From Brachypterus glaber (Eukaryota; Arthropoda; Insecta; Coleoptera; Kateretidae), in NCBI GenBank assembly GCA_958510825.1, contig OY294047.1, forward strand, positions 43,236,006 through 43,300,005: DNA of 64,000 bases. The letters run 5' to 3'. The notes below the pieces were generated by a model. The model was not told the DNA's origin, searched no databases, and saw only the letters and a program-made list of their open reading frames with translations. Shown in pieces: positions 2,195-60,999 of this stretch (position 1 is its first letter; each line of letters begins with the position of its first letter). Made by a program: the position numbers and the translations under genes.

Positions 2195-2400
2195 TCTGAT
2201 ACATGCAGGGCCGGACAGAAACAGCCCGGGCCCCGGGGAAACTTTATTTCTGGGCCCCTAATTTTTGCAAAAAAGTCTTCGCCTCCGGAAAAAAGCTTTA
2301 CCCATGGCAGAAAATTTTCGCGGGGCCCCTTCGGGCCCTGGGGAATGGGGAAAAAATGCTTTGGCTCCACCCTATTCCAGAGTCTGGGCTGTAAGGGATT
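2195..2400 (+). repeat. GC-rich interspersed repeat fragment
   Basis: This patch is unusually rich in GGGCCC-type runs for this AT-rich locus and has no sustained homologous frame. A similar GGGCCC-rich patch lies at about 21531-21905, so I read both as degraded copies of a dispersed repeat, possibly retroelement-derived. The family is not identified. Confidence 0.4.
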
Positions 2401-2587
2401 TTAATTTTAAAAAACAATACTATTTTGTACAACTAAAACAGAAATAGTGCCTTTACAAAGCGAGAGTAAATATTAGATATACTTTTGTGTAAAGCATAGT
2501 AAAGAAACATAAAATATGAATTTGAATTTCTGTGTTTTTTTAGTAATTTGTTTGCAACCCTCGCTTAAGAATAGCCCATTTACAACA

Positions 2588-3213
2588 TTAAACTCGGCGC
2601 AGAATCTGACTAAAACACTGGATCAAGGCAGCTATGATTGGTGGTTTAAAAATGACAGTGATATTTTTTTTTCATTGTGCTTTTAACTCCGCTTTTAATA
2701 ATTCTTGACATTTAGTTTAAATTTACTGTCATTGGCCGTGTTACAAATAATTATAAGAACATTTTAAAAGTTTGTTCAAAGTTATGATAAAAGTAAGTAG
2801 GGGTTTTTATTCATAATGTGCTATTAAAATAAAATTTTATAACCTGACCTAGTGATATCTAAAATTATATTTTTTAAATAAAATTATGGACTGTTATTCC
2901 TTTAACTTGCCGGAATATATTCTGCCACAACATGTCCTATATAACTTTTATTGAGCATTACGTTATATTGTTTAATTTTAACACAACAAATGTAGATTCA
3001 TTCTTTAGTTTTCTTTTTTAGGACCTCTTCTGTTCTTTATATCATTTTTAAAAAATTATTTGGATCTTATTTAAAGTTCAAAATATTGATTTGATTGACA
3101 AAAAACTTAAAACAGAAGATAATCACCCTTCATAGAAAAATAAATTTATTCCGCAAACCATAAAACAAGAAACAAACGAGCAACAAGTCAGATAGATTCT
3201 GCGCGGAGTTTAG
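2588..3213. mobile_element. TIR element, about 626 bp
   Basis: The left end AAACTCGGCGCAGAATCTG at about 2590 is matched by its inverted counterpart near 3189-3213 (AAACTCCGCGCAGAATCT on the opposite strand). The interior is AT-rich without an open frame, as in a non-autonomous DNA transposon. Confidence 0.45.
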
Positions 3214-8400: not shown

Positions 8401-9531
8401 GCATGAACATCTTTTTTAAAAGCCATTACAAATTAAGTACATGCCATTTGTACCATTTCAGAGACGGTGTCAGCTAATGCTAGTCCATGTCACCTAGGAA
8501 GCTTCAAAAGTCCAGACGACCAATTCCGGCGTCGGTCAGAGGGCAGTGAACCAACCTCGATCATATCGTACTCCAGAAGAGTATCCCTGAATTCCTCTCC
8601 GGTCCTTCGGTGCAGATATGCCCGATGCGGTAAAACCGCTTTAGCGACGAGTACGGAGGCAGAAAACTACAAAAATTGCCACAACTGTTCCTACATTTAC
8701 TGTTCAAGAACTTGCCGAAGAGCTCACTGGGAAAAACATCGAAAAACCTGCCTGTTCTCTAGGATAGGATCACTATGCAGACAGGTTATTGCTGCTAGCA
8801 AAGAACAAAAAGACTCTCTGTTATATTTATCAACTATGGCCAGAAGAGGGTTCTTATCACATGGACCTGGGGCTGTAAAATGCTTTTTCTCTTGCCCAGA
8901 AGTGGCAGAGAAGTTTCTATCGAACGGTTTGCAAGCACTAGGTGAACTAACTTACGTTCGGTGGCAGGACTTGTTACCTTCGGAGATGGGCCCTCAACTT
9001 TACGCCGAATTAGTAAAAATGTGTAAAAATTATAACCCAGACTCTAAACTCGTGCTGTACGTATCCATATGTGTGGTTTCGGAAACGCCAGCTTCGGGGG
9101 CGGTCAAATGGGAGAGACAATTAGTGTCGCGTTGTGCCAAGTTAAGGCTTAGTAAAGACATTCCCATACCTGAAAAAGAACAGGAAAATCCCGAAACCCT
9201 TATCCTAACCTGTCCCCCAATAAATGGAAGTGAGGAGAAGATCAAACATCTCAGGGAGATGAGCGTGAACAATCTACAAATACATCTAAGGCAGCGAGGT
9301 GTATCACTTCGTAGACAGCATCCCGAAATTTATAAACAAATGACTGCATATTGTGATAGTTTAGTCAAATTTACGCCCGTTACGGTTTATCCGAAGGATA
9401 GCGCGACCGGTAAGAGTTTTATGTGCATTATCATGCTGGAAGCTGATCATGACAGTCTAAAAAAAATTGAAACTGCTGGGGTCAAGGTAAAAACTATTGA
9501 TGTTTTAAGCAATCCACTCCCTGATTGGTAA
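5291..9531 (+). CDS. MYND zinc-finger, apical-junction-molecule-like protein, 3' part of gene (introns included)
   Basis: Two exons, 5291-5428 and 8462-9531, join in a compatible phase across a 3.0-kb intron. They give a continuous C-terminal fragment of 401 residues ending at TAA. The fragment starts with a Ser/Pro/Gly-rich segment containing LEDVLDSLLGLP. It continues with an Arg/Ser-rich linker, a MYND-type zinc finger (about residues 96-142) and a domain of about 250 residues with no obvious repeats or membrane segments. MYND fingers usually bind proline-rich partners. The finger plus the long C-terminal domain resembles AJM1-like junction proteins; that match is from memory, and an uncharacterised MYND protein is the alternative. 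The first visible exon begins in mid-codon, so upstream exons must exist; I found none in 1-5290. Confidence 0.85.
5642..6416. mobile_element. Foldback element in the MYND-gene intron
   Basis: Arms of roughly 300 bp (about 5642-5940 and 6110-6416) are inverted copies with scattered mismatches. Shared landmarks include CGGATTT, ATCTTATTCGTTTG-like blocks, TCTCTATTA and a GATTTAATCCAGT/ACTGGATTCAATC pair near the centre. The interior is AT-rich and non-coding. It lies wholly within the intron. Confidence 0.65.
6417..7235. other. Intron sequence, no feature seen
   Basis: AT-rich intron DNA. A reverse-strand open frame runs from about 7230 down to 7040, but it shows no recognisable domain and extends into the adjacent MITE, so I do not call a gene. 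Confidence 0.5.
7236..7590. mobile_element. MITE with GGGGCTGTCCATAAAGTATG ends
   Basis: Long inverted ends start AGGGGCTGTCCATAAAGTAT and continue through GACCAAAATTCAT and CCCCGTTTCTCGCG, all mirrored at 7530-7590. The centre carries GCGCATGCGCTGACCG and an A-rich run. A fragment of the same family ends the composite insertion at 36393-36485. Another inverted fragment lies at about 18735-18892 inside a different element. No transposase is encoded and the superfamily is not determined. Confidence 0.8.
7591..8461 (+). other. Intron 3' part with splice acceptor
   Basis: AT-rich intron DNA with no element recognised. It ends in a weak pyrimidine tract and the acceptor CATTTCAG at 8454-8461, which opens the terminal MYND-gene exon. 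Confidence 0.6.
8462..9531 (+). CDS. MYND gene, terminal exon with zinc finger
   Basis: A single open frame of 355 residues follows the acceptor; its frame continues from the exon at 5291. There is no ATG at its start, so it is not an independent gene. Potential zinc ligands, numbered along the 401-residue fragment, are C96, C101, C118, C121, C126, C130, H138 and C142 (H134 is also near). Their spacing includes C-x2-C, C-x3-C and H-x3-C, and W135 (in AHWEKH) is the tryptophan typical of MYND fingers. An Arg/Ser-rich stretch (QFRRRSEG, SRRVSLNSS) precedes the finger and could be phosphorylated. The rest is a mixed alpha/beta-looking domain ending in NPLPDW. Codon use is ordinary and no frame breaks are seen. 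Confidence 0.9.
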
Positions 9532-26747: not shown

Positions 26748-27012
26748 ATGTCCAGTTCAGCCAAGACTCCGCCGAGTTTTTCCGGAGCCAGACACCACCC
26801 AGAAGATCCGGATCTTAGGAAAAATGTGCCGGACCTAAACGGCGAGGTGAAGCACTCCGTGGCCAGTTTTTTGCCTAATAACAATGTTTGTGACAATGTA
26901 GTGTCGTCTGTTTGTGATACGCAAGAAATTGACAATTGTGGTGTGAAAAATGAGGGAGTTCTGGAGGAAGCGGGTGCACAGACGAATAGAGACTGCCTAG
27001 ATAAACCTTCCG
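26748..27012 (+). CDS. FBXL6: FBXL6 exon 1
   Basis: The exon starts at ATG 26748 (CTCATCATGTCC) and ends at donor CCG/GTAAGT, one base into a codon. It encodes residues 1-88: Ser/Pro/Asp/Asn-rich, several Cys, no domain. The start is chosen because it is the first ATG in this frame after the leader acceptor and because the frame joins exon 2 in phase (G + AC = Asp). The much less repetitive composition stands out from the flanks. Confidence 0.8.
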
Positions 27013-30000
27013 GTAAGTTTTTTTTACGAATGGAATAAAGAAATAGTATATTACATACTGAGGTGGAAAATGTTTAATTTTCTGAGGGAAAGTTAGCACC
27101 AAGGGGCGTTAGCCCCGGGGTCAGTTAATTTCCGAAGGTTTGCGTACTATTTTATTCACAATTTTTACCTATTTTATTAACAATTGTATATTTTTTGTTC
27201 CACGCATAGAAAAAAAGTATAGAATGCTCTCTTGAAAATAATTTCGTATTACTACGCCATTTCTAGGCTTGAAAGTCCAATAGAAAAGCTTATAATGCAT
27301 AGAATAAATTGAAAGCCTGCCACTAGTACTGAGTACTAGTGGCGCACCCGTGCCGGTAGAAATTCAATTTCAGTATAAAAATTAAATTTGAGTGCGCAGG
27401 GTATGGTCCCACGGAAAATCTGAATCTAAATTTATACACGGAAAGAAATTAGTGGGCTCTGCGCTATACATTATAAGATATTTGGTAACAGTGGCAAATT
27501 ATAGTGATTTAAGCTATAGATTATAAGGGACACAATAACTAATAATGTTAAAAATAAATTGGAAACGATTATATATATTACAGAAACGATTATATTTATT
27601 ACAGGCACTATTATAAATTTACAGAAATTTTATTATATTATAAAAATTATTAGCACGGACAATAATTAAATCTATTTAAGCTATAAATGCCATACTATTT
27701 GTTATATTTTATTATTCACTAAACAATTAAAGTATTTCATATAAATTTTTACACTGACTGCCATAATTGTAAGAGAAAGCCTTCTATTTATATAATAAGC
27801 GATTATAATTTGCTTGGTATGTGTGTTATAGCGCTCCTAGCTATAATTTTTTTTTTTCCGTGTACACTGGTAAAGTTAGTTACACATTTTTGCTTTATCA
27901 GTGCACGTATAGATGGCGATCTCCACGAAAATTAAACGATGCCGTGATTGGCTTTACACGTTTATGGTTATCCGAGCCTGTGGACAGCGCCTTATGTTGC
28001 TTAAAATGCTAGGCAAAGACATTATCGATATAACTGACGAAATTGGGACCCCTGACGAAATTAGGGACATAAGCCTTACTTAAAATTATATTTTTCCTAC
28101 ATTTTAAGTAGACAATACAATTATAAAACTTTTCGTAAAATTTCCACATGTATACGTTTTTTGTTGTTATACTTGCCATAAGTAACTTATTGCTGATTAG
28201 CCAGAATAAATTATGTTAATAAACATAAAAAAATTAAAATAAGCGTAAATTTCTTGATTACTTATTTATAAGCATGCTTTATGTATTTGTAGACTCTCGC
28301 CGATAGAGGGCCTTTGTTGTTTTATACTGTAGGGTTATCCCAGACATTTCATTCAACTTTTTTTTGGGTCGCTTTTTAATTTTGAATGGTTCAAACTGAT
28401 AAAAAATACGTAGCTAAAACTAGCTAAAAAGTGTACTTTTAGTTGGAATTTAAACAGGATTTGGGTTAAACTAGTCAGTTATGTTGTAAAAATCACCAAA
28501 CCATATAGATATATACCAGAACTAGTCGCGAAACCCGTTGTTCGCACGAGCATGTAATTATTATTTCTCGTCTTAGCATGGCCGGTTCTAACTTTTAGCA
28601 ATTACATTCAAAAGTTATAGGAATAATAATTCTTGGACAGGTCCGCCATTTTGTTTTCAACGGAGGGAGAATTTTATAAACGAAATTTTATATAGGTAAG
28701 TCCCCTAAAACTTATACAAAATATAAGTTTTCTATTTTATTCATAAACACAATAATCATAGAAAATGATAACTTTTTGGATTTTTTGTGGAATTTATGTG
28801 TAGCTGTGTAGATGTCAAGTTTCTGGCTAATTTGGAACTGGGTAAAAAGTGCAGACAAACATGATTTTTTGGTTGCGAAAATATACGCTCTTTTGTTTGA
28901 CTTTTAACGCATTAGCGTATAGAGCAACTACAAACTATCATCGCGCAAAAAATCAAAAAGGTCAATTTAGATGTCAGCTTATAGATTATCTCGTAATCTC
29001 GTAAAATGTAAGCGACAATATGGACCCTCTTCTGGCGGTGATTCACATTTATGCTAAATAAATCATTAGTTTTTTATTTAGGAGTGTAATAATCACTATT
29101 AATGACTTCTAAATTAACACGACCATTTAGAAATAGTACCTACCTATATTTCTAACCTAATAAGAAAATGAAACATTTTCAACTCGAGAGATGATATTTG
29201 GCCGAGGCGTAGTCCAAAATGATCAAAATTTGCGTTACGTAATACGTGAACATTCCCTAACTTAGGTTGAAAAAGAAAAACTTCAGCTTCATAGCTTTTT
29301 TAACTTTTAAAGAAACAGACAAAAATTATATATTTTGCTACTTTTTATAATGTATAAAGAACGTTTTTCTATATGCTTGTAGTCGTTTTGAATACGGAAA
29401 ACTCGAGGGGAAACTATAAATTGACAAATTTTTGCATTTATTATACTCCACTGTATCACACATTTCTTTTTTGTTCGTCGCACAGTGTTTCGTCTAGTGT
29501 ATAGCTAGCTGGACAAAATTATTTTTTTCACTACCAGCCTAAAACCACATCTTTATTACTGTTCTTTTCATTGGTAGAAATATTATTTCTCTACCTATGA
29601 CGTCAGAGGTTCTAACAATAATAAAATTGCACCATAGTTAATAATGAATTTTTATTCAGCTGTTTTGGCATCTGACGTTTCACTTAATTATTAAATCACA
29701 TTGCTATTTACAAGTGTCTTTAGGCACCAAATTTATTTATTGCATGATAAATTAAAAAATATTAACTAAATTAGTACCTATAAAACATGTTTTACAAAAA
29801 ACACTTCGAAAAGTGAAAATCATTGGCCCATCATATTCAACCATAGATTATACAACCCATATATTTTCGTAAGGATCATAGATTACTAGAGGTACAACCC
29901 CCATATATTGATTTTTGAGACAATAGATTCTCCCTCACAGTTTTCGCCTGTCCCCTTATTTCTGGGAGAGTACCAGAATCATCACTTTGCATTTCACTTT

Positions 30001-33000
30001 CCATTTTTATATATTTTATTACACTTAACACAGAAACACTTTCTAACTTAATAATTTTAGCAGATCACCAGAAAATTTCTGCCAGAAATGTCAAGTTATT
30101 CATTTGTTTTTTTAATGGCCGCGAACGACCAGCGTGATATTTTAAATTTATGAGCTTTTTCATTAAATTTTAGTAAAAAAAAATAAATAAATAGCTAATT
30201 AATTGTACTGGTAGTGAAAAAAATACTATATTTTCCACGTGAGTGAAGATTTAACATTTTAGACCGCGTCTTGCGGGCTTGGCGCTAGCGCGCTCATCCC
30301 GCAATTTGACGCAGGTCAAAAATGTTAAACTTCTCTCACTTGGTAAATAATATAGTAATATTTGTTTTAATTGCATAGAATTGTATATTATGCAATAACA
30401 AGGGCATATCAGAGAGAACAAAACATTATTTTCATAAAAAAAAGATTTTATTTTTTTACAATGAAATAATACGAGGATAAGACATTAAGGTAGACGTAAA
30501 AGTGCAATATCGAATGAAAATTAACAAAATTAAAACAAAATAATAAATCTTTACATACTATATAAATTATTAGTCCTAAAACATAACATTATCCGATGAT
30601 GACTCAACAAAAAAAAAAAAAAACTAAATTAAATTGTTTGATATTTACAAATTTAAAAAATCTATATAAAACATTTTACTATTCCTTAAAACGACTTTTG
30701 TTTGATTAACGCAGTCGTCCCTTCGAAGTGACTGATCGATTTCGTGCTTTTTAGCACTCTTCAGAGCCACATATCGGTAGTAGGGACAACTACGAAAATC
30801 AAATCCTTTCCATATATCTCTATATAGAGTTTAAAAATCGTTGTAAGGAAAAGCAAAAACAGCTAGCGACATCTACTGCTAAAAGCAGAGACTGGATAAA
30901 CCTATCGACAGTCCAAAAAAGGAAGCAGTTATTGGTTTCAAGCGTGCAATAGGTTCTTGAAACCAATAACTGCTTCCTTTTTTGGACTGTCGATAGGTTT
31001 ATCCAGTCTCTGCTTTTAGCAGTAGATGTCGCTAGCTGTTTTTGCTTTTCCTTACAACGATTTTTAAACTCTATATAGAGATATATGGAAAGGATTTGAT
31101 TTTCGTAGTTGTCCCTACTACCGATATGTGGCTCTGAAGAGTGCTAAAAAGCACGAAATCGATCAGTCACTTCGGAGGGACGACTGCGTTAATCAAACAA
31201 AAGTCGTTTTAAGGAATAGTAAAATGTTTTATAAAAAAAAATAGCCTAAAGGCTGGTCTAGATCAAAAGTTGTGGTCTTTGAAAATTAAAGAAATTTTCA
31301 AAAAAAAATTAACAGTACATTCAGTTACATATTTTAAGTACAACTACCCAACAAAACTGTATTTTTTTACATAAATATAATAAACATACCTTGAATAAAA
31401 GCTTCCATCACTAAAACACATTTCACTTTCACTAAAAATTTTGAGAGATGTTATCGAAACTGTGGCAAAATTGCAACTGGTACGAAATTCTCTTCTGTAA
31501 TTTGTTTGGTCTTTAAGAGACAGGCTCAGTGCCTATGGCTCATTTATCTAAAATTTGAATTAATTTGAATGGATAATTGGGGGAGTGAGTCTCTGCTCAC
31601 TGATGCTGATTTGCATCTGTCATGAATTTTTGGGTGTGACGAGGAAGGTGGGAGGGGGATTTGGGGGGATGGAGTAGGGATTGGAGGGAGGTGTGGGGGG
31701 AGTGAAACTAGTTCACTGGTGCTGGAGATGCACCTGTCCTGTGTTTGTGGGCACCATTACTGGTTGAGGACATTTTTGATCTTTTTGTAAGTGTAGTGGA
31801 TTTCATGATCGTAATCTAGAAAATTTGAGATGAGGGGGTTTGGGTGGTCTAAATTGTCTTGTATAAAAGACTTACTGTATCGGATGATTTCCGTTTTTAG
31901 GAGGGGCATGTCGAGATCTCTGTGAATTTGGTTGTTCCGCATGAACCAGGGGGTACGAAATTGGCCGCAACGCCTTGCTTATCACTTACCTTTAATCCAG
32001 GCTACCTAATTAGGGAATAATCCTGTGACCTTTATTTCTTGGATTTGGTACCTGGGAGGGGATGTTTCCTACGTGGCACCGTTAGTTTCATGTAATTAGG
32101 TCATGCATTTTGTCATCTAGACGAAACAGTGCGTCGGTCTGTGTCTTATATCTCGTATATTTATCAAGAGGGGAATGTCGCTATGAAATTTTCAGGAAAA
32201 TCAAATTCTGTGAAAGGAAGTTCTTCCAAAGGACTTAAATGCTTTAGAGAAAAGTCTAAAAATATATAAAAAATTGAAGGAAAAGTCCGATAAACTCCAA
32301 ATTTTCAGAAAACATTACTTCGATTGATAGAAATATTCATACCGATTTAAAACGTAAAATTATTACAAAAACAAAATAAAATACCCATAACTTAAGTAAA
32401 TTTATTCGAAATTTACACGGAAAACTTTTCAGGTATTTTATAAAATTACGCTCTTAAAATACGGTTCGTGTTATTTAATCGTAAAACGCATCAAAACAAA
32501 ACTGAAGAACGCCAATCTAATATTATTATACTCTTAACTGCGCGCAAGCGCTAGAATATGCACGGCATTCCTGAAGGACTAATGAGATGAAGTAGCTCTA
32601 CAGAAAAATCTGATTAGGGAGCGTTCAAGTATTACGTAACGCAAATTTTGATCATTTTGGACCCTCACCTCCCCCCTTCTGTAACGCTATTTTCCTATAC
32701 CATTAACGTGGGCGTAACACCCCCCTAGGAGCGTTACGTAATACTTGAACGTTCCCTTATAGATCATGGTAGCAGAAGGTCTACACATTACAGATGCTTT
32801 TACAGCTAAATCCAGAAAATTTGTTTTTGGTAAATAATGCTAAATAATCTTCTGCAGAATAATTCTGACAATAAATTGCATATTTTGTTGAACGATTCCG
32901 ATAGTATTTTTTTAGCTGATTCCGAATATCTTTAAAGTAAATATTTTTCCGTCTTCGAGAAAAATTATCTTGAAAATATTTTGTTCCGTTTTTCAAGTGC

Positions 33001-36000
33001 TTGTAGAAAAATTATCTATACTTGGGTATATTATACCAGAGAAAAGAGCTTTTACACAATAAATACGATAGTAATAACTACGATAGTTAGGTCTCGTTTA
33101 AACATCGTGATAGAGTCTCTATCATAGAGACTTGAAATTTGAAACAAAGATTTTTTAAGTGGTAAAGAACCTTTTGGTCCAAATTTCACGTCTCTATATA
33201 CTTAATATATTTTAAAAAGCGTTCTTGAAATATCGTAGCGTTAAGTTGTTTTGCAAAGGACTTGCATCTTTAATCTCAGCAAAGGACTTGCATCTTTAAT
33301 CTCACTGTATATAATTTATAATGTATATTTTAGCTGCCCATGAAAAGCAAACGTACAACAATAAATTTTAGTTGAATGTTATAGACTAGTCATGCAAGTC
33401 GGAAATTACAATTATTTCAATTTAGACAAATCTGTTATTGGAGAAATCTATAACAGAAAAAACCAATAAAGGGTACGTTCAAGTACGCCCCTTCATGTAA
33501 CTTACCATCAACTTTGTTGTGTACACAACCCCAACTTGTGACACGTGCTTTGGTTTAGAAGCTTTTTTCGAAAAAGTGTCCGAAGTCACCCACACCGTCC
33601 GAGGTCACCTCGGTTGGCGGTACTTTTCCTATACCATTAACATTGACTGGCGCTAACCCCCCTTCGCATTGTTGCGTTATATAATACTTGAACGAACCCA
33701 AAATGGTATACTCTCTGCTAATGCTAGTCTTACATTAAACAATCTTGGGTATATGCAAATTTGTAGTAAGACTAAATTGGCCAATCAAATACGTCGAAAA
33801 TAAAGGTCGGAGATTCAGTTGGTTAATTTCATACTGCTCATACCGTTTTTCCAAATAACTTTTCTAAGCTATTTTTACTGGTTTCCCACTTCAGCAAAAC
33901 GGTCGATTTTTAGTAAAAAATAAGTCTATTTTTAGCACAGAGGTTCCATATTTGCAAAAAAGTATACCCAGTAAGCAACTGCCTAAGACATGTGTATACC
34001 CAGTGAGCAATTTTTACTGGGCATCTACTTTTGCAAAAAATCCCCCATTTTCTTAAAAAGGGCTCGTTGTTAGGCATACGTATCCATTTAGATACACAAA
34101 TATACGTTAAACAGTGCTCAGATTATATTAGTATATTAAAGAACTAGTTTCATAACATACGTTTTTAGCGCACGAGTACAAGTTTAGAAAACGAGCCGCT
34201 TGCGGTGAATTTTCTAAAGTACTAGTGCGCTAAAATTTTAAAAAACTTACATTTAAATTGATTACTGATTTAGGGATTTTTGTTTAGAATTGGCATTACA
34301 GTTTTCGCCATGTTTAAAATTCTAAGGACGAATATTGTTTGATATATTTTATAGTCATTTCTTCTCTTTTCCACTGCAAGTAACCAAGCTACAATTTTAA
34401 CACGGTAAAACATAACCTAAACACAAAATTTTGTAGAAAATTAAACTTTAAACCGACGTTCACAATTGCACAGCAAACGTCAAGAGATAGACTTTTGTCT
34501 GTTGCCAACCCAAAAGAAAAAAAAGTAGAGACCCCTTATGGGCATATAAGAACACGCAAAATGCGTGTGATTATGAGCTTATAAGAGTCGCAAAATAGAA
34601 AAAAGTTTATTAAATAAGTTTGACCTATTAAGCCTAGATATACGCACACTCAGAGAAAAATCGTTGTAAAATCAAACAAATGTCATATGATTTAAAAGAA
34701 AACCAATATGTTTTTGCTCCGACAGTATTTTTTGTTAATTCAAAAAGATATTTTTCAATTTTATAAGACATTGTAAAAATAAAAATATTCCTTGTAATTT
34801 AAAAAATGTTTCCTTTTATTTGTAAACTTGTAAATGATTTAAATATAAAAATGGTTAATTTCAAAAGAATTATTTAATTATATTGATATTTTTCAACAAT
34901 CGAAAGGGAAATATTATAATTTTATTAAGAAAACATTTAAATAAGAAAGTAAGGGACAATATTTTTGCTTTAAAGTGAAAAACGTTTTGATGTAAGAATT
35001 ATTTTTTTAAATTAATATTATTCATAACTAAAACGTAAAGTTTTTACTTTTAATATTTTAAAAGACAATTTTTCTAAATTAAAATAATTTCTTATTGATT
35101 TTACAAGATGAGATTTTTCTGAGTGCAGCAAAAATATATCAATTTCTTTTTTGTTTAATTTAATAAACAATAAAGTTGATTGTGAGTTTTTACTAAGCAA
35201 GATTCAGTTTCAAATACCAAGAGGAAATAGGCAAATTAATACATTTAAGACCAACTTTGCAAAAACTAATATTGTGCTGAAATCACCTATTTATGTTATG
35301 TGTTCAAATTTTAACTGTATTGACAAGGTTGATATTAATTTTTCTAGTCTCAAACAAATTTTGTATGATAAAAATACTTAATTATTTATATATATTGGTC
35401 TATAGCCAGTTTTGTTATAAACTTTTATTTTGTGTCCTGCAATTGGTGTTAACTGTTGGGTAATAAACTCATTATTTATTTATTTACAATCCTGCTACAA
35501 ACTTGTATATCGGCAAAATACATAGTGTAAGCCTAGCTTTAAGCTGGAAGACAACTGTGTTCATAAATATATAAATTGAGTTTCAAGGTTGGATCTGATT
35601 GCTACCTATTGTTTTCTGTTCAAAGCCGTCTATAATTTTGATTTTAAATAAAAAGGATAATTATATATTAGCTCATTTTCCAACTGCTTTAAAAAACAAT
35701 CTACAATTGAAGAGTAAAACTTGCAAAGAGTCTAAGTGCCATTGGCACTTAGACCTATTTATACTCTTCAATTATATTTGGTACTATAAGTTACAGTTAC
35801 AAAGGGTCTATGTGCCAATGGCACTTAGACTCTTTGCAAGTTGTACTCTTCAATTTTGTAACTATACTACTAAAAATTATGTTTTTGGAATTAATTGCGT
35901 TGACCCAAAAAATTACAGTATGTACCCTATTAAAAATGACGGGGCTTTGCGGTTATAAATGGTGCACAAACCCGTCATTTTAATAGGGTAGTTTACAACT

Positions 36001-39000
36001 TTTTACTGTGGCGCACACACAGAAAAATATTATCTTAAATCAAGAATGTGTGATTTGGATATAATCAGGAGAATATATTCTTCTTTTAAGCATATCATTT
36101 CATATTTGAGATTATACCAGGTGTTTTTTTTTTACCTGAAATTTTCAAATATCTCGAATACTATGCATTTTAGAAAAAAAGATGTCGGACAAAAGTTGTT
36201 TATTTTAATGGGGGAAACAAAATGGCGTATTTAATTCCTCAAAAAAATAAAAATCTTTTGTAAAAAACTTTTTTTGATTGGCCTTTTAGTTGCAGAGATA
36301 ACACAGCCACACAAAATTAAGAAAGTTGAATCTCCGACGGACTCGAATAGTCAAAAAGTCCTATGTATTTTGAGCCCGCTGAATCCGAATATATAAAATC
36401 TCTACAGCCTTTAATAACGCAAGAAACGGGGTATGAAGTGTATGAATTTTGGTGAATTTGCGTGACGTATTTTATGGACGACCCCTTATATCCAAATCAC
36501 ACATTCTTGATTTAAGATAATATTTTTCTGTGTGCACTCGGGCTTCCGCATTTTTTCTTCAGCCTTCGAAATTAAAAAAAAAATTGGTATAAAAATACCT
36601 TAAAAGGTGCCCGGCACTGATGTGTAATTTTTTAAAAGAAATTCTCAGTTTTTTCTGTATCTATCGATTTAGGCGAGGGGTTTATTTATTGAAAAAATCT
36701 GTAAAAGGATTGTGAAATATTGTCAAAGATTGTAGAAAAACGTTGGGATTGTGAAAAATGTTTTAGAGATTTTTAAAGATTGTGGGAAGATTTAAGATGA
36801 TGCTTGTGAAAGATTGTTGGATAGGTGTACAAGGATTGTCCAGTAAATACACCTTTGTATTTAGGCATTTTAAAATTTGAAGTATAAAATACAGGGTATG
36901 TAAACTTCGCAAATATGTAAATGTCGAAATTGTAATTCTGTCCAAAGATAATCCGCAAAAAATATTGTTTTTTTTTTTGTTGTAAACTGCTTTCCATCTA
37001 ATTCCCTAACTAATCTCCTAAGGGAACTTTCAAGTATTACGTAACGCAAATGATAATTTTGGACCTCCTCCTCCCCCCGTAACGCTATTTTCCTATACCA
37101 TTAACATGGGCGTAACACTCCAAAATGACTCCCACTCCCCCTAGGACCGTTACATAATACTTGAACGTTCCCTAACTCCCCGAGCTCTAAAATTCTCCTC
37201 CTCGAATTCTGTAAATGTTATTTAGTGGCAATTAGTTAATGCTAGACTAAACTAGACTTAATCATAGTGAAACCTCTGATTTAAAGTGAGTCTGCAATCC
37301 ATGTTAATGAGTGCAACCTCCCTTCGGGCACGCCTAAGCGGGCGTTACGTTCGGTCTTTTCACTTCCGGTTCGCGAGCTTGGAATGCCGACACATTCCGG
37401 TTTAACTTTTGAGGTCTGAATTACTATCTGATGATTGTATTTTTCAGAGTCGGACTGGCTGGACATTTTACATAAACTAGAAATATGTATAATGAATGGA
37501 TCATTCTAAAAATGCCTAGTTTCCGAGAAATGTAAAGATTTATTTATTTAGCCGTGAAGATGATATCTTCATCTACATATTTAATAATAATAATAATAAT
37601 AGTATAATATAATAATATTATTATGTAATTCCGCGCATTCAGTTATATTCTATTCACAGTAAATGGTATATTGCATTTTCCCAAATACTTTAAAAAAATG
37701 TTCAAAAAAAACAGACCGATTTTTTGAAAAAAAAATTAAAATATGTCATATCCTTGTTAAAATGTGGCGAACGCGGCATTCGGAATGCCTCATGAGCTCA
37801 ACGATTTGCTAATTTAAAGTTTTATTAAATGGCAAAAGATTTGAGGAAGTTCTCCCAAGCTATTCCCTTATATCCTGCTTTGAATACGTCTCCAACTAGA
37901 GGGCTGCGAAGTATAATATAGAGATAATGCCGGCTGTTAAAACGGGCATAAAAACACCGGTACACACAGAAAAGATTATCTTAAATCAATAATGTGTGAT
38001 TTGGATATAACGAAAAGAATATATTCTCCTTTAAAGCAAAATTGTGCATTATATATGAAAAGATAAGAATATGGCATGCTTGAAAGAAGAATATATTGTT
38101 TTTGAAAGTAATCCCCCAAAAATATAAGTTATCGGGCGGTTAAACTTTTGAAAAAATCGAAAAAAGTTGAAAGAAAATTCCGATTAACGTAACTTTTTTT
38201 GGAAAAATTACTTTTATAAGGATTAATTCTACCAATTTTGAAAGTAATCCCCCCAAAAACAATGGGGGGTTTAACTTTTTTTTTAATTTAATTTTTTTAG
38301 CTTTTCGTTTTTTTGCAAAATGAATTTTTTTTTTTGAAAAAATTTTTTTATTGAAAAATTTTTATTTATTTTTTTTTGTTTTTTTTTTTTAAGAAATGAG
38401 CTATTCCCTTATATCCTGCTTTGAATACGTCTCCAACTAGAGGGCTGCGAAGTATAATATAGAGATAATGCTGGCTGTTAAAACGGGCATAAAAACAGCG
38501 GTACACACAGAAAAGATTATCTTAAATCAATAATGTGTGATTTGGATATAACGAAAAGAATATATTCTCCTTTAAAGCAAAATTGTGCATTATATATGAA
38601 AAGATAAGAATATGGCATGCTTGAAAGAAGAATATATTCTCTTCGTTATATCCAAATCACACATTCTTGATTTAAGATAATATTTTCTTGTGTATGTCGA
38701 ACTGGCTATGTATTTTATCGGGCAAATGCCCATATCTCCGAAACTAAGCATTTTCAGGCTCATGTTTATATAAACTTTTTTATTCAAAAGAAATCATTCT
38801 ACAACGCAGTATGTAACAAGTTTTTTTAAACAGTGAAAATGAGGGATAAATGTAAATTTATTTCAAAATTCAAAAATCGTCCTCGACAAAAAAATCTTGG
38901 ATAAAAATTTGTTTCATAAAAAAATAAGAAATGTTTGTTTTTTTAATTTTTGTCCGTCGGTATCTGTCAGATGTCACGATTTTTGTAGACACGATAACTC

Positions 39001-42000
39001 CAGAACGAAATTTTCAAGAAAAATTATGTTCTATGGGGGGACGATCCCTATTGTTTTTGAAAGTAATCCCCCAAAAATATCAGTTATCGGGCGGTTAAAC
39101 TTTTGAAAAAATCGAAAAAAGTTGAAAGAAAATTCCGATTAACGTAACTTTTTTTGGAAAAATTACTTTTATAAGGATTAATTCTACCAATTTTGAAAGT
39201 AATCCCCCCAAAAACAATGGGGAGTTTAACTTTTTTTTTAATTTTATTTTTTTAGCTTTTCGTTTTTTTGCAAAATAAATTTTTTTTTTGAAAAAAAAAA
39301 TTTTTTTATTGAAAAATTTTTATTTATTTTTTTTTTTTTTTTTAAGAAATGATCTTATTTAAAAAAAAATCTTTTTTAGTTTTTTTTTTATTTTTTTTTT
39401 GTTTTTCGCAAAAAGATAAAAAAAACAAGTTTTCCCTTTTACGTGGCAACAACAAGTATATCGTCGCGGTAAGGCGCACTGCAAAATTGGGTTAATAAAC
39501 CCGGACGACTTAAACGTTGGCGCACCGACTTGATGCCGCTTGCTGTGCAGATGCTGCTCTTTTTATTATGTTTACCAACACGGTGATGCTATTCCACTGC
39601 TAAATCACTGAAATAACCTCGGTAGCACACGGAGAAATCGGTATTTATAGATCAAACATCACAATACTTTTATATAAAAATATACCATTTACCACTACAG
39701 TTTACTCTAATATACAGATACAGATCATCCATCCGTTTTATATACACTCCAAAGTAGAATTCGTATTTTCTTGTACCCGTGCAGTACTCACGGTTCACCT
39801 GGGCGATTTTAAATAAAAATTTCGTGGACCCCTACATTTTTTGGACTAAAACATAACTGATGACATCAGAAATCAATTCCCATTTGAAAGAAAATCGTAA
39901 AAGATACACTTTTTTAGACAGATAAAAAAACGTTTTTTTTAAGGTGTGTCAAAAAATCGCGATTTTTAAAATCAAAAACGCTCCCTGGCTTAAAAGTTGC
40001 TCCTTAGTAAAAAACAGTGGCCACTCAAAAATAAGCCAAATCGATAAATGTTTAGAGGTAACTCAAAGCACTCAAACTTAAAAAAAAATCGGTACCTGTT
40101 TTTCGGAGTTTGAGTGCTTTGAGCTACCTCTAAACATTAATCGATTTGGCTCATTTTTGAGTAGCCACTGTTTTAACTAAGGAGCAACTTTTGAACCAGA
40201 GAGCGTTTTAGATTTCGCAAATCGGAATTTTTTGACACACTCTATTACTCAAAAAAACGTTTTTTCATCTTTCTAAAAAGGTGTATCTTTTACGATTTTC
40301 TTTCAAATGGAAATTGATTTCTTATGTCATCAGGTATGTTTTAGTCCAAAAAATGTAGGGGTCCACGAATTTTTTTTTTTAAAATCGCCCTGGTGAACCG
40401 TCTACTCTCGATGAAATCGGTATCAATCATTCCGCTTTCAAGATGTCAGTCGCAATTTCTTTAGTGGGGGATACGAGGTATACACATTCGATGGATTACC
40501 TTTATACTTTATGTTCCAAGAAAAAATATACTTTATAGTTTCAAGAAAAAAAGGAAAACGAGCTATAACTGAAGTTAATCAGAAAGTACTCTTTAGGAGC
40601 CAACTTTTAAGTTTTATCTGACCTTCGGTTTTTGCAGTTAATTAAAAGCGAGGAAGCACAAAGTAATTAGTGTGTCACTAATTTATTTAGCGGCAGCAGG
40701 GGTTATTGTTGTCCTAGTCCAGATTTGTGCGTCAACAAGGTTTAATTGGAAGTACTTTAAGCCAACGGGTGTAAGTGGAATTATTATAACCAGTACTCGG
40801 CGAATTTTCAGTACTCGCATAGGCGCCGCGTCGACTCTAGCGTTGACGCGAGGTTTTAAATACTTACATTTTTATTTCTTTTTATCTTGATGTTTTTTAA
40901 TGATTCCATTTAAACGAGTAAGGTGGGAAAAAAATTATCGATAAACAAAAATTAAAAACTTTCGTATTCTTAAAATATAAAAATCGAATGTCGGTTTTTT
41001 CTTTGAAAAACACCGATATATATACATATGTATAGTTAATATGTATAGTCAATATTGTTGTGTGTAACAAATTAGTCGACAAATGTTTCGATTTAGTGAC
41101 CTTTATAAAAATTTCTCTCATAATTCGGCAAAATTATTCCGTAAGCCTATGTTTCTGTGTTTATTTTCAACGTTGATGAGTCAGAACTGAGTTTACGCCG
41201 ACTACTGATTATAACATGCGCTAAGGGACTGTTCTCCTGGGTCACTGCTTAGCTTTCTTGTGTTTTGGTGGTTGGTGTTTGTGTTTGGCGTTTGACGAAA
41301 ACTTCCAAATACCCAACCAAATAACTTTTTTTTTTTTTTGGAAAATATTCCCTCAGTTTTAGAATGACTTAATCGGTTTTTGCCTAGTTAGTTTTCTTGT
41401 GTTTTAAGGCCTATTTACAAATACGACGTAAAAATGTAAACCTAAGGACGTAAAATAACCAATTCTTGCAAATAAATGGCACACTATACAGTTTTTTATA
41501 GTACTTAGTACCATTTATGTGTTAATAGGCCTTTAGTTTGGGGGTCTATCGAGAATTTCGAAAAACCCAACCACTTAACCACCAAAACAAAAGAAATTTT
41601 CTTTTGAAAACCAACTGGACAAAGCCACAACCAATTCATTGTAAACTATTTTTTTTAAGAACTTTAAGTTACTTTTTAAAAATAATCTAATTACTTTCAG
41701 ACGTAATTCATATATTATTATTTTGGCCCATTTTACTTGTTTACCCGTTTAGTGTCTGATTTAATCTGCGAGTTTCAGTGGAACGGTTTCAGTAAATAAA
41801 CTGATTTCAGGAATGACTTACTCTCACGCGTTTAAATTAGATTGTTTCCTTTTATGATTGTGTTCTGTTTTATTTTGTTTTATCTGCCTCCTTGTTTTAA
41901 TTAAGATCCACAAAGCATTATCAACAACACATAAAAATTATGTTTTTTTCCCTATTGACTATTTACGAGAAATTAATTTTCACCATCAAGGTCTATAATA

Positions 42001-45000
42001 ATTATAATTATTATATTATTCACAGCGCCTGCGCTAGAATAATATACGGTAGTTTCTAGTTTTCAAATAAAAATAAAAAATCGTCATAGACAAAAAATTC
42101 TTGGATATAAACTTGATTATCCAAAGTTCTAGGCTGGGATTGTTTTTCGTAAAAATCGGGCTGGGGTAAAATGGGGTAATTTTTTTTTTCAAAAACATAT
42201 TTTTTTCAAATTATTTTTGAAAAAAAAATTATTTTTTTTTTATTTTTGTTTTGTTTTTGATTTTAATGAACCTAAGCCTATAGGGAAAAGTATTATTTGT
42301 TGGCAGCAGTTTTTTTATATGTCGGTCCGTCTGTGCGCCCGATGTCACGTTTTTTGTGGACACGATAACTCAGGAACGAATGTCATTAAAATTTTGAATA
42401 AAAATATGAATTCCTAAGCTATTTATTGGATAAAACCTTGTATGGCACTCATGGGTAAACCGATATTGCCCTCTCGAAAATTAACCTGCTTGGCTGACGC
42501 CTCGATTAATTTTCTCATAGGCAATATCTTACTTTACCCACTAATACCATAAATATCTATTTGCCATTTAGGCCAAAATCCCATATTAATCAATACTCTC
42601 CTTACACGTATTTTTTTACTATGAGCCCTATAAAAATAACAAGGTTTCCATTTAAAAGTCTAAAATAATTTATTATTTATTTTTGCAGACACAAACTCGA
42701 CAAACGATGGTACCAGTACAACAAACTCCGAAACCGCTCCACCAGTGGCACAGACCTCGGAGGACCCATACAAAATGGACGACGACATGGACGCCGTCGA
42801 CGCGGAACCAAAACCGACGGTCGCGTCGTCTGAAAAACGCCCGGAACAACACAACAATGGCGTCGTAAAGAAGGCCAACAACAAGAAGAGCAAGAAGGTC
42901 AACAGTGGTGTTGGTAGGGGCAGGCCGAAGAAGGGCCAGGTGGAGATGTATCAGAGCCAGATCAGTGGGGACAAAAACACTATCAAGATCAGAATAAAGA
43001 AAAGTAATTTGACTGCGCAGGTTCAGGTAAATAAATAAAGGAGAGAAGAATAAGTTAACTAGTTATGTTTTGGCGATTTTTTTTTTCAGGATTTGATATA
43101 TTTTTCCGTTTTAAGGTGTATTTTTTACCAAAAATCCAAAAAAAGGTTTGGAGGCAAAAATGTGTTAAGCCTGATACATTTTTCCGTCTAGGGACGCCTC
43201 TGGATAAATTAAAAAAAATACGTTAACATAAACTTATTACCCTTATTAATACTAGTATACATGCAAAAGCTTGTTGCTCTAGCTTAAAGGGTACCAGGGT
43301 TAATTAAAAACCTTATCTTCGAGGGCCGTAGCTCCCTTAGGGCTCATTTGCAGACCAACCCTTGTAGGAACTTTTGTATTTGATATTTGGGATTTAGGAG
43401 ATAAAATTTTGGATTTTTTCTGAGGTCATGGGGATACTCCATGTACATACCTAATTTCAAGTTTCTAGCTCTTCTAGGTTTTTAATTTTTCTTCGATTAT
43501 GTGGAGGGTTGGGGGCCCATAGTCAATTTTTGAAAATGCTAAATTTCAAGTGTCTAGCTAATCTGGAAGTGGGTCTTCAAACCGGGACAACTATACATAC
43601 ACAAGTTTTTTTTTCTTTTATTGTATAGATTACTAGTATAAATACCGGTTTTTCCGGAAAAATTACATAAGGGAGTTACTTTTTTATGATCACCGAAAAT
43701 AAATGCAAACTGATTATATAATAATATAATATAAAGATAACAAAATAATCAAAATATCAAACTGATTTGCAAATTTTCGCGAGAAAGTAAACCGTGCCAT
43801 TTTCAGTTTATTAATAATCTATTACTTTTTAGCAAAGAATTAGCATGTGAATAAAAATATTAGAAATGCTTGGAAATCATATAGCTTTAAGTATAAATAT
43901 TTAAAAGTAGCTGGAAAAGTAGTCATTATAATATGTCTTACGTGCATTTTCTTTCATTTTGTACTTTTTATCTTTATCGGCTAATTTACATAATTGTATA
44001 GCACCGTTGTTGACGTTTTTGCGTTAAAATATTATAATGGGTATTTTTCTTATCATATCCGTCGCAAATACTATAAATATTTTAAAGCAAAATATTATTA
44101 CAGATCAGGAAGCTCTGCTTTTGATTTCTTTATTGGAAGTACTGTTTTAGAAAATTTTGTCTTTTATAATTTTCTATACTTATACTTTCTTCCCGACTTT
44201 CTTCATTTTCAAAATTTAATTTATGATTCTTCGTTATCAAATTATTTTTTTTTCAGAATTTTTATTTATTATTAAATTAAAATTATAAATTGTATATTCC
44301 TAAAGGAAAAAATCTTGTCAGTTTTTATAACCATTTTTTTTATTAAATATAGAAGAAATATATAAAATAAAAGTCAATCTTTCTTGTTGTTATGGCTAAA
44401 TATTTTATTAACACGAAGGGCGAATTTCATCCAGCCGATACTGTATATGTTTTGATATTAGAAATACGAACGCGAGTATAAAATTTTCGATAATTATCCA
44501 AAATTATAATTGAAGAAATTTCAATGTTGAGGTTATGATTGAAAGTTTATGGCTTTAAAATTTTCATTGTTACTGTTTATTTAAGCCGTTTGGCTCGTAA
44601 GATCAATTAAATGGGATCCCGGGATCAACGCACACACCTCAATCCCTAAAATGTAAGTATTTTGTGAAAAAAGTGCCTTTTCTAAAAGAGTACAATAAGT
44701 ATAATAGTATATTATTCAATGAGTGTATAATAATTGCTATTAACCAATGAGGGTGAATTTTGGGACACGAGCCGAAAGGCGAGTAACCTAATCACCCGAA
44801 TGATAAATAGCTTTTATACGCGAGTAGAATACTATACTTTATCCATGGTCGTTTTAACTTTTAAACGATTTATTTTTACAGACCTGTGATTAATAGGCCC
44901 ATTAATCACGGCCGTGGATAAAAATATTACCTCACATTGCTAAGGGAGACGTGAGACAATTTATAAACATTTAATATGTCAATTTCCTTAGGTAAATTGA

Positions 45001-48000
45001 CGACAGTAATCTTAAGTCTTTATATTGATGTACCTGGCAACAATGCGGATTCTAGGTTCAAGGTTCAAGGAGGACTTAAATTAGTTAATGGCTGGGATTT
45101 CCTGGGGTGACAAAAAGGGCCATAAATGGCCTAGTTGTCCAGCTTTGGACAACCCAAAAACTACTACTATATTGATGTATTGGATAAAATTTAATTCTTA
45201 ACTCGTGTATTAAGTGATTTTATCCACTTGATACACTAGTTAGGAAAATAATTATTAATTTTTCCCCCCTTTGTAATCTATAATTTTTCACATTTCAGGT
45301 GACCCCAAACAAAAAGAAAAGCGGGCGCCGGAAAAAGCACAAGTCCAACTCGGACAACGAAGCGTCCGACTACGAGCGCAAGCCGAAGAAAAGCAGATCG
45401 TCCACCGGCGACAACGACGTGTCCAGCACGCAGCAAGAGCAGGAGCCCGGCGAGCAGAGTCCCTGGGGCAACCAGTTGCCGGAAAATCTGTTGGAGAGGA
45501 TATTCGATTTTGCGTGTCATCATGATGGGTGTCTGCCCACTCTTGTTAGGTAAATATATAAGGTGTTTTTTTAACCTAAAACTTTGAAATATCTCGAATA
45601 CTATGCATTTTAGAAAAAAGAAATGTAAAACAAAAGTTATTTATTTTATGGGGGGAAACAACATGGCATATTATTTTTTTTACGGATATTTACGTTTTCA
45701 AAGTCAACTTTGTTTTAGTTGCAAAGATAACACAGCGACACAAAATTAAAAAAATTGGATCTCCAACGGACTCGACTAGTCAATTCCTATCTATTTTGAA
45801 CCGCTGAATCCGAATCTGAGGTCGGAATTTGTAAGTTCCCAAGCTCCTATTTTCAACATAACCTCAAAAGACATACTTTTTGCAATGATATGTTAAGTTT
45901 TTTGAGGTTATGTTAAAAATGGGAGCTAATTTACAAATTCCGACCTTAAATTCGGATTAGGATTCAAAATACATAGGAATTGATTACTCGAGTCCGTCGG
46001 AGATCCAACTGTTTTAATTTTGTGTTAATTCTGCAACTAAAAGTCCGATCAAAAAAAGTTTTTTACAAAAGATCTTTATTTTTTTGTGTTGAATTAAATA
46101 ACAGTAAAAAAATATATGTTTATATTAAAAAAAAAGTTCACCTTGAAAACGTAAATATCCGTAAAGAATAAATACGCCATTTTATTTCCCCCATTAAAAT
46201 AAAAACTTTTATTCTACATTTTTTTTCTAAAATGCATAGTATTCAAGATATTTGTAAGTTTCAGGTTAAAAAAAAACACCCTGTATAATTAAACACCCTT
46301 TACTTAAATTTTATTCATGTTTCGTGTTTTGATAAACGTAAAATTTTTGATTTTTTTAAATTAGTTTTTACCCCCTTGCCCCTAGCCTAATTTTTACCAA
46401 AACCAAAGCCAATGCCAGAACTTTCGATAACGACCCTATGGTTTAAATTTAAAGTCTTTAGCTCAAAGCGTTCTCGAGTTACCCCAGTCAAAAATTTTAC
46501 CGAACAGACCGACCGACACTTAGGTATTAAGTATAATCGGTCACATTTATAGTAGAATGTTTACATTTAAAATAGATTAATGTGAGACAGGGACGTAATT
46601 AAATTTTATTATATTAAATATGTACTTATCTTATATAGCTCGATATAGCACAGAACACAAATAAAACAAATTAAATCCGGTCCAGTAAATATTTATTGCT
46701 AAAAATGCTTTGTGGGTGTGGCTAAATCTTTTGTGAAATATGATTGGATAGAGTCGAACGTTAATTGGCTAGAATCAGTCCACGCGGACTCGATAAAAAT
46801 ACATTAGTTTAAATAAGTCTAAATTTATGCAACGTCCCGTTTGGACGAACAGTTTGACATGCGCCAGGTAAAAATAATTGCTGTTAAAAAAATCTCTTAT
46901 AACTCTGGCAGCGACTATACCTAAATACCTAAATAGACTTTTACGCCGCTACACAAAAATAAATTAGTATTCCAATAGTGTTTGATATATCGTTTCCTAT
47001 AGATTTTGGACGGCTGAATCCAAAAGAGAGAAAAATTAAAAATCAATTATTAATTTTAACTACTTGGGACAAACACCTGACTTTGTTATTAATTCATAGT
47101 CACTAATTTCACTTTTAAAATGTTTTTAATCAAATTTAAGTAAATGTAAATATTATTTAAAGTATGTTGATACTAAGTGTAATATCAGCGGTTAACTCTT
47201 GTCATGTTAACCATTCCAGATTAAACAATAATATTTACTTAAAAATCTGGCACTGATAGTAAATTTATCTAAAGTGTAATAAATTATTATGTTTTATTTA
47301 TCATATATTATGGATTTGTTTTATCTATTCAATATTTATTATCTAGTCAGTTTTATAATAACTGAATTTTTTATTTAAAAAATAAATAATTAAATAATTA
47401 TCTTATTATATCTACTATTCACAGCGCATGTGCTAGAATAGTATTATGCGGTAGTTTATAATTTCCCAAAATCGCCAAAAAACGTCCTAGACAAAAATTT
47501 CTTGGATACAAATGTGTATCATTAAAAACTAAGAAACTTTTTTTTGTCCGTCCGTCCGATTTCACGTTTTGGTGTAGACGATAACTCTAAAACGAATAAT
47601 CCGATAGACTCAAAATTTTCAGGAAAAATCAAGTTCTATGAGGGCAAGGTCCCTATTCTTTTTGAAAGTAATCCCCCTAAAAAGAAAAAAGTTATGGAGG
47701 GTTAAATTTTTAAAAAAATCGAAACAAGCTGCAAGAAAAATTCGATTAACGAACTTTTTTAGGAAAAAATACTTTTATTATAACGATCAATTCTACCAAT
47801 TTTAAACCCTCCAAAAACAAAAAAGTTATTGGAGAGGGTTAAACCTTTTTCAAAAATAAAAAACCGCAATTTTTTTGCAAAAAGAAAAGTCCAAACGAAA
47901 AAAATCAATGTTTTATTTTTAATTTTTTATTTAATTTTTTGTTTCTCAAAAAAAGATCTTATTTTAAAAAAATAATTGTAATTTTTTTTAATTTTTTTTT

Positions 48001-58995: not shown

Positions 58996-58997
58996 TT

Positions 58998-59697
58998 AAG
59001 GGGTTATATACCTACTGGCTCCGGAAAATTAAGCATTTTTATTGATTTTTTTAGGTATGAAATCACATCTTTATTCAAACGACCTACATAATATCAAATG
59101 GTATGTTTTGATGTGTTTGTGAAAAAAATTTTATTGCAAAATTCGGAAAATCGTGGAAACCATAACCCTTGTCCCGAAACGCATTTTTTTCTCATTTGCG
59201 GTGACCACGATTTCTCGAAAACCAATTTACCGATCAATCTGAAATTTTTAGGTGTTGTTCCTAATTACAATAGTAAATTCGTAAACGAAGGGTTTTGCAG
59301 AAAAAATTACGAAAATGGCGATCATTTTCCCAAAAAATCGATTTTAGATGTTCCGAAAATTGAGTTTTCCGGCCGCAAAAAGTAGAAATTTTCGTTTAAA
59401 TAAAATCCCTTCGTTCACGAACTAGCTATTGTAATTAGGAACAACACCTAAAAAATTCAGATTGATCGGTAAATTGGTTTTCGAGAAATCGTGGTCACCG
59501 CAAAAAAAGGCGTTTCGTTTGGACTTTTTCCGAATTTCCACAATTTTCCGAATTTTCCAATAAAATTTTATTCAAAAACACATCAAAACATATACTATTT
59601 GATATTTTGTAGGCCATTCTAATAAAGTTGTGATTACATACCTGAAAAAAATCAATAAAAACCCTTATTTTCCCGAGCCACAAGGTATAACCCCTTA
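58998..59697. mobile_element. GGTTATATACC element, copy 3 (700 bp, most complete)
   Basis: Arms of about 320 bp, from AAGGGGTTATATACCTACTG to a mirrored CCACAAGGTATAACCCCTT. They pair through GTGATTTCATACC-like, GATATTTTGTAGG, GGTGACCACGATTTCTCGAA and GTTGTTCCTAATTACAAT. The open frames on both strands are mirror images of the arms and not genes. Confidence 0.85.
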
Positions 59698-59847
59698 AAA
59701 TGAGAAATGAATGATACTTGTTAACTAAATTTATTGTTAAATATTAATAACGGCAGAATGAGTTTCGTTACTTTTTATTATATTAAATACTTAGAAGTTC
59801 GTAGTACCTATATGTGTGTAAATGTGTAGACAATTTTTGTTATTTTT

Positions 59848-60436: not shown

Positions 60437-60746
60437 GAGGATGTTTATGCAAAATCAAACGTGCCCATGGCGAAAACACATGGACATGATTTTGCACGAA
60501 ACCTCTTTATTCTTGTACATTGAGTCAAGTCCTAATATTATCAGCGTTTTCTAACAGATTTCAACAAGCAATTGAGTTACTTTATTTTATACATTTGTGC
60601 ACTTTATATAATATTCTGTACCTACTAATATGTATATTATTTATATAAATATATAAATAGGTTGAAGTAATGGCAAACAGTGTTTTTGCGCGCTTTTATT
60701 TAATTCACTTCCCTCCACAGCTTTATAAATAGAAAAGTATTCCAAG
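60437..60746. other. Intergenic DNA, no feature seen
   Basis: AT-rich. GTGCCCATGGCGAAAACACA near 60461 has no partner. Confidence 0.4.
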
Positions 60747-60980
60747 TACCGTCAACTGGGGTGATTTCGGAAGGTGTGGGTGACTTCGGACACTTTTGAA
60801 AAACTCAAGCAAAGCACGTGTGCAAAAGTTGTGGGGTTATGTGTACAAGCTGGGGAATTGAACCCCACAACCTGTGCACATAACCCCACAACTTGTGCAC
60901 ACGTGCTTTGGCTAAGAGAGTTTTTCGAAAAAGTGTCCGAAGCCACCCACACCGTCCGAAATCACCCCCAGTTGACGGTA
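60747..60980. mobile_element. Palindromic MITE with TACCGTCAACTGGGG ends
   Basis: Left TACCGTCAACTGGGGTGATT, right CACCCCCAGTTGACGGTA; symmetry extends almost to the centre (AGTGTCCGAAG, GCAAAGCACGTGTGC, TGTGGGGTTATGTG), so the 234 bp are close to one hairpin. TA borders. A deleted copy is nested at 33503-33622. Confidence 0.88.
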
Positions 60981-60999
60981 TTTTCCAACTTTTTTAATA

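Follow-up and report, generated by a model that had tools for sequence, protein, structure and literature searches.

Among the described systems closest to the locus reported here are the non-LTR retrozymes of metazoans and the endonuclease-bearing Penelope-like elements (PLEs). In published PLE copies (PMC3846280) the pLTRs are inverted, one of the two ends bears a tail of 31 bases, and the duplications span 8-10 bases; self-priming is suggested there for head-to-head copies. When purified, the protein of one PLE extends the two strands of the target from a pair of start sites that lie on either side of the tail, and it does not require hammerhead cleavage in vitro (PMC11167929). Since start sites did not differ between the top and bottom strands in that assay (PMC11167929), one tail per insertion is not predicted by it. 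According to PMC7229834, PLEs are strong candidates for the machinery that moves the retrozymes of animals.

The hairpin of this study lies in a 64-kb window of a beetle genome, the window being the whole stretch of DNA analysed. A ten-exon gene model with GT-AG sites and matching phases was spliced from the window (coding 26748-53801, 689 aa, with some 8 residues probably missing where exon 9 begins). Its best match, at 71% over 99% with exon 1 aligned, was the Aethina tumida F-box/LRR-repeat protein 6, and the hairpin thus lies inside FBXL6 intron 1, where an earlier note on this DNA had placed it. The repeat search of the window and direct base comparison reproduced exactly the near-perfect structure which that note had described: two inverted arms of 278 nt each (30665-30942 and 30956-31233), a spacer of 13 nt and a single arm-arm mismatch, at 30723. 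Pairing ends at the arm limits, the adjacent outer base pair being unpaired. The features are as follows, with unit positions referring to the 436-bp repeat unit described below.

26748-27012, plus strand: FBXL6 coding exon 1 (spliced model and protein alignment)
27013-42688, plus strand: FBXL6 intron 1, 15.7 kb, which contains the insertion (spliced model)
42689-43026, plus strand: FBXL6 coding exon 2 (spliced model)
30618-31233, unstranded: whole putative retrozyme insertion, 616 bp, plus segment of unit 1-324 and then minus segment of unit 340-48 (mapped to the 436-bp unit; left limit, 30618, uncertain by a few bases within an A-run)
30618-30664, plus strand: tail, unit 1-47, at the left end only (homology of other copies passes the left arm, not the right arm)
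30665-30942, plus strand: left palindrome arm, unit 48-325 (repeat search, direct comparison and unit mapping)
30710-30794, minus strand: mirror of the predicted hammerhead motif in the left arm (core 30728-30770; outer limits set by symmetry with those in the right arm)
30941-30956, unstranded: inversion junction and 13-nt loop (plus stop at unit 324, minus stop at unit 340)
30956-31233, minus strand: right palindrome arm with its tail-less end at 31233 (repeat search and comparison with copies)
31104-31188, plus strand: predicted type I hammerhead motif, core and stems located, predicted cut after 31164
31234-31241, unstranded: probable right target-site duplication, AAAAAAAA (partner inside the A-run 30609-30623, exact place ambiguous)

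Sixteen inverted repeats of the window were compared for arm identity, and the hairpin ranked highest; the arms of the remaining 15 were 82-96% identical, and identity is what distinguishes the hairpin from them. The plus-strand RNA folded into a single stem of -506.4 kcal/mol; the mean of shuffled sequences was -124, and 0 of 100 shuffles reached the hairpin's value. The GC content of the arm is low, at 36.7%. An origin of the arm from a gene was rejected because its longest reading frame had neither a Pfam match nor protein relatives in Pfam and protein searches. A second match to the arm was absent within the 64-kb window, the matches listed for it in the whole genome belonged to the repeat family described below, and copies were absent by exact pattern from viral contigs and a general genome-contig collection, and by blastn from phages and plasmids. 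Rfam microRNA matches spanning the loop were discounted, since any long stem is expected to give them and an unrelated palindrome did so too.

Several other elements were seen in the window. FBXL6 intron 1 holds another full palindrome at 39790-40401 (612 bp, 12-nt spacer, arms 91% identical), which had no hammerhead match in the Rfam search. The palindromes at 45738-46025, 53255-53529 and 60744-60983 have spacers of 9-18 nt and arms 82-92% identical, and their sequences are unlike. The inverted repeats at 61000-62232 and 58996-59698 have ends starting with TACAGGGTGGCCC and TTAAGGGG, respectively, which we take to resemble TA- and TTAA-target DNA transposons. A single-exon-like frame at 8437-9528 encodes a homologue of apical junction component 1 with a MYND finger, the best named matches of which are from beetles.

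A search of the whole genome, as the earlier note had proposed, uncovered a young, dispersed, high-copy repeat family: at least 180 matches came from the 40 places scored of 199 candidates, and the family matches among those listed were mostly 97-100% identical. High copy number was one half of what the note had named as refuting its small-RNA reading, the other half being a lack of small RNAs. Homology with the other copies extends ca. 46 bases past the left arm and 0 past the right arm. A TA/TATA duplication of a DNA transposon, hinted at by the hairpin ends, was abandoned because other copies carry the tail. The retrieval of 37 further regions defined a unit of 436 bp, which also occurs as direct arrays (e.g. 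L015 and L022). A tandem unit of this length falls within the 150-450 bp of metazoan retrozymes, and the low GC (36.7%) and the longest arm frame, which lacks Pfam matches and relatives, agree with their non-coding, low-GC character. The lone arm mismatch is itself a family polymorphism (C in 102, T in 17; 17 of 46 loci have both bases), so that no change of the arms since insertion has to be assumed. Three loci (L068, L070 and L075), which are ca. 81-84% like the unit with different tail sequences and a largely kept hammerhead region, appear from their sequences to be an older subfamily.

In the right arm, Rfam Hammerhead_HH9 matched 31116-31186 (E=6.6e-5), where its 28.4 bits fall short of the gathering score, 52, and in the left arm it matched 30725-30773 (E=6.6e-4, 25.3 bits, also below gathering). 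The same model matched in all 5 further loci tried. In our own reading of the arm RNA strand, the motif comprises CUGAAGA, stem II GUGC/GCAC, GAAA, a one-pair helix III, a palindromic tetraloop UCGA and a two-part stem I. The hammerhead core and stem II were intact in 47 of 51 loci. The modelled lowest-energy fold was near the active fold and not identical to it (-40.7 vs -22.6 kcal/mol). Like metazoan retrozymes, the family thus has a type I hammerhead, here as a motif with Rfam scores below gathering. The RNA of the 436-bp unit is therefore predicted to carry a type I hammerhead, and by this motif the hairpin is classed as a metazoan retrozyme. An imperfect repeat within the arm was considered as an older MITE and rejected, the repeat being part of the hammerhead stem I region; its ungapped 26-bp match was better than 500 of 500 shuffles, and in gapped self-alignment 80 of 1000 shuffles were equally good, which makes it unremarkable.

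Insertions were mapped at 52 loci, 38 in set 1 and 14 in set 2. The set 1 query carried the tail of one side and might miss tail-less insertions; set 2 was drawn as a control with a tail-free query, the 34 candidates of which were all scored, yielding 14 more loci, some of them older. The lower divergence of set 2 in the ribozyme than elsewhere (5.1% vs 7.9%) was partly selected for, since the set 2 query spanned the ribozyme. In set 1, 31 of the 38 loci had a plus segment followed by a minus segment, that is, head-to-head (28 in simple form and 3 in which the plus part is split in two), and the remainder consisted of four single-strand loci, two cut by the retrieved stretch and one complex locus (L038). 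In the latter, 1354-2659 has the segment order plus, minus, plus, minus, that is, two consecutive palindromes. At L027 (1052-3152), the plus segment of unit 48-167 occurs twice, ca. 700 bp apart, ahead of the minus segment.

The outer ends mapped to unit ca. 433-3 (tailed) or ca. 31-48 (tail-less), with a tail of ca. 45 bp; a set 1 end called tail-less may hold a tail remnant of up to ca. 17 bp because this class covers unit 31-48. Both ends could be classed in 29 set 1 insertions, leaving L013, L016 and L044 with one unclear end and excluding the single-strand loci L015, L021, L036 and L037 and the cut loci L030 and L031. One tailed and one tail-less end were found in 28 of these 29, the exception (L033) having two tails. 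The tail-free sample gave the same arrangement in 10 of 10 clear insertions, which came from nine loci (L063 has two) and were judged by our reading of the ends. The other set 2 loci were single-strand (L062 and L070), overlapping L031 (L066), old and probably one-tailed (L068) or old and possibly two-tailed (L075). Direct duplications of at least 8 nt flanked 27 of the 31 loci passing the filters of the duplication test, compared with 15% of 396 mismatched pairs; their median length was 12 nt and 94% of their bases were A or T, and the other 4 of the 31 lacked a clear duplication. Inverted units, a tail at one end and short AT-rich duplications are the insertion mode of PLEs. The duplication of the window copy is a run of A and, taken alone, weak evidence.

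The explanation that we favour, at a probability of roughly 0.75, is that a non-autonomous retrozyme inserted here very recently and so gave rise to the hairpin, both target ends having primed cDNA on one multimeric RNA. A PLE-type reverse transcriptase/endonuclease would cut AT-rich DNA, leaving overhangs of ca. 12 nt, after which a single uncleaved RNA multimer would serve as the template for cDNA primed from both target 3' ends. The start of one cDNA would be near unit 1-4, which leaves the tail, and that of the other near unit 48. Both would grow inward, each stopping at a point of its own, and would then be joined. The stops of the window copy, 324 and 340, nearly coincide, and the insert is therefore an almost perfect palindrome. 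In the FBXL6 pre-mRNA, the arms should pair, the right-arm ribozyme with its left-arm mirror, which would trap the ribozyme in a duplex.

One alternative is self-priming, in which a retrozyme cDNA (or an antisense template) folds back and copies itself to give the inversion, as suggested for head-to-head PLEs in the Discussion of PMC3846280. Fold-back of a single cDNA predicts equal stops and the independent stops of two cDNAs predict unrelated ones; over the 45 junctions, the plus stops bore no relation to the minus stops (KS p=0.85 against uniform), and in each of two pairs of loci whose junctions are near-equal, the sequences are different. Stops no more than 21 bp apart were in slight excess (8 observed against an expectation of 4.4, p=0.07), so some copies may stem from fold-back, and the nearly equal stops of L034, L043 and the window copy, which is among the near-coincident cases, are in line with it. 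Self-priming also leaves the one tail per insertion unexplained, and we regard it as unlikely. Divergence between arms was 0.81% within a locus and 1.33% between loci (0 of 2000 permutations, 26 loci), a likeness that could come from one RNA or source, or from later homogenisation. The segments pass the predicted cut site and cover several units, and successive units were unlike each other in 22 of 29 segments. These features favour an uncleaved multimer over a one-unit circle as the template, though the unit differences could also come from later mutation.

The enzyme invoked by two-ended priming was sought in the genome. The GIY-YIG search gave at least 31 matches from 150 scored of 419 candidates. 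Among these loci, L086 has RVT_1 and GIY-YIG on one frame, both above the cut-offs, between inverted repeats of 369 bp (966-1334 and 2582-2950, 99.2% alike), and by this structure appears to be a young PLE copy with inverted ends. In L077 the two domains fall on successive frames, GIY-YIG on the first and a weak RVT_1 on the second. At L095, an inverted repeat of ca. 790 bp (840-1632 and 2247-3035, 98% alike) surrounds a GIY-YIG match. A PLE with the unit's ends was not found among the PLE loci examined. Likeness between the tails of the unit and of PLEs at 20 loci scored 28-38, compared with a window background of 34 (95th percentile) and 35 (maximum); only L081 (38) and L095 (37) exceeded that maximum, and tail likeness was set aside as unconvincing evidence of a partner. 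The insertion was not filed as a PLE because it lacks an RT/GIY-YIG ORF, the longest frame in its 616 bp being 107 aa with no Pfam match. The link drawn between the retrozyme and PLEs is one of mechanism and not of sequence. On balance, we think it rather probable that Penelope-type enzymes move animal retrozymes in trans, by an obligate two-ended target-primed reverse transcription in which each target end uses a different fixed start site of a single multimeric ribozyme RNA and the cDNAs are joined at unrelated stops.

The hairpin might alternatively serve as an hpRNA, if Dicer cut siRNAs out of the stem of FBXL6 intron transcripts and these siRNAs acted against the retrozyme family or another target. 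The stem is uninterrupted in the plus-strand RNA and lies within an intron of a gene presumed to be transcribed, and TEs can supply the arms of Drosophila hpRNAs, according to the part of PMC10317233 drawn on here. Many other family copies are hairpins too, however, and selection at the window copy is thus unneeded; we consider this role doubtful. It is compatible with the insertion by two-ended priming, of which any effect of Dicer or ADAR would be a by-product.

The earlier note had also offered a very young foldback transposon. Youth and mobility were borne out, and the class of foldback DNA transposon was not, because the copy has two dissimilar ends and an inversion point of its own, and because its arm consists of a retrozyme unit with a hammerhead motif. 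A palindromic MITE-type element copied by a transposase would suit a window that is rich in palindromic repeats, several with 9-18-nt spacers, and Made1 provides a precedent in the portion of PMC1784062 used here. A transposase would, however, copy a single fixed palindrome, whereas in this family the termini differ, the junctions are private, the palindrome is not inherited from copy to copy, the length varies with tandem units and a hammerhead motif is present, so that such an origin is highly improbable. Finally, short-loop near-perfect palindromes are a known form of chimera, but a sequencing or assembly artefact, also raised in the earlier note, is very unlikely, to the point of being negligible, since identical termini, tails and target-site duplications recur at dozens of places and the arm mismatch is a family polymorphism.

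These results turn the puzzle of an intronic hairpin into the footprint of an insertion. Hammerhead retrozymes and the anatomy of PLE insertions were already known; the test by private junctions and the one-tail regularity are new, and no report of head-to-head, one-tail retrozyme insertions was found in the parts of the open-access literature searched. The mapped copies provide a direct test of the ideas on the retrozyme-moving enzyme and on PLE self-priming put forward in sections of PMC7229834 and PMC3846280, respectively. If the copies were made from both broken DNA ends at once, the mirror-image form is explained and the Penelope-type insertion mechanism becomes testable. Two-ended priming, if true, would explain both the head-to-head form and the single tail of PLE insertions and would make near-perfect genomic hairpins its occasional by-product. 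A near-perfect hairpin known from sequence alone is not necessarily an hpRNA gene.

In the twin priming of LINE-1, two primers on one RNA produce an inversion with a variable junction, and just one outer end is fixed. Both outer ends of the retrozyme, in contrast, are fixed start sites. Among other palindromic sequences, the Made1/hsa-mir-548 MITEs, as presented in passages of PMC1784062, share the near-perfect palindrome and the possible read-through as a hairpin, but Made1 is an 80-bp mariner-derived DNA element of fixed structure. Drosophila hpRNAs share a long inverted repeat in a transcript, with arms possibly derived from TEs (PMC10317233, in part).

A close likeness in composition is with the metazoan non-LTR retrozymes described in the main text of PMC7229834, which share tandem units that are non-coding and a few hundred bp long, a type I hammerhead, low GC and duplications longer than 4 bp; the axolotl HHR_Amex1 described there also shares the one-pair helix III and the palindromic tetraloop. 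They differ in that most mapped beetle insertions are head-to-head with one tail, the word "inverted" being absent from that main text, and in that the heterogeneity of the units points to a multimeric RNA in many copies, not to a one-unit circle. Unlike PLEs, the beetle unit shows no RT/endonuclease gene. The PLE tail, at one end, is 31 bp, or 30-40 bp, in the relevant passages of PMC3846280 and PMC11167929, compared with ca. 45 bp in the beetle retrozyme, and the PLE duplications are 8-10 bp, compared with a median of 12. The endonuclease-bearing PLEs of these passages nevertheless share with the beetle insertions their inverted terminal units, AT-rich targets and, in some elements, a hammerhead.
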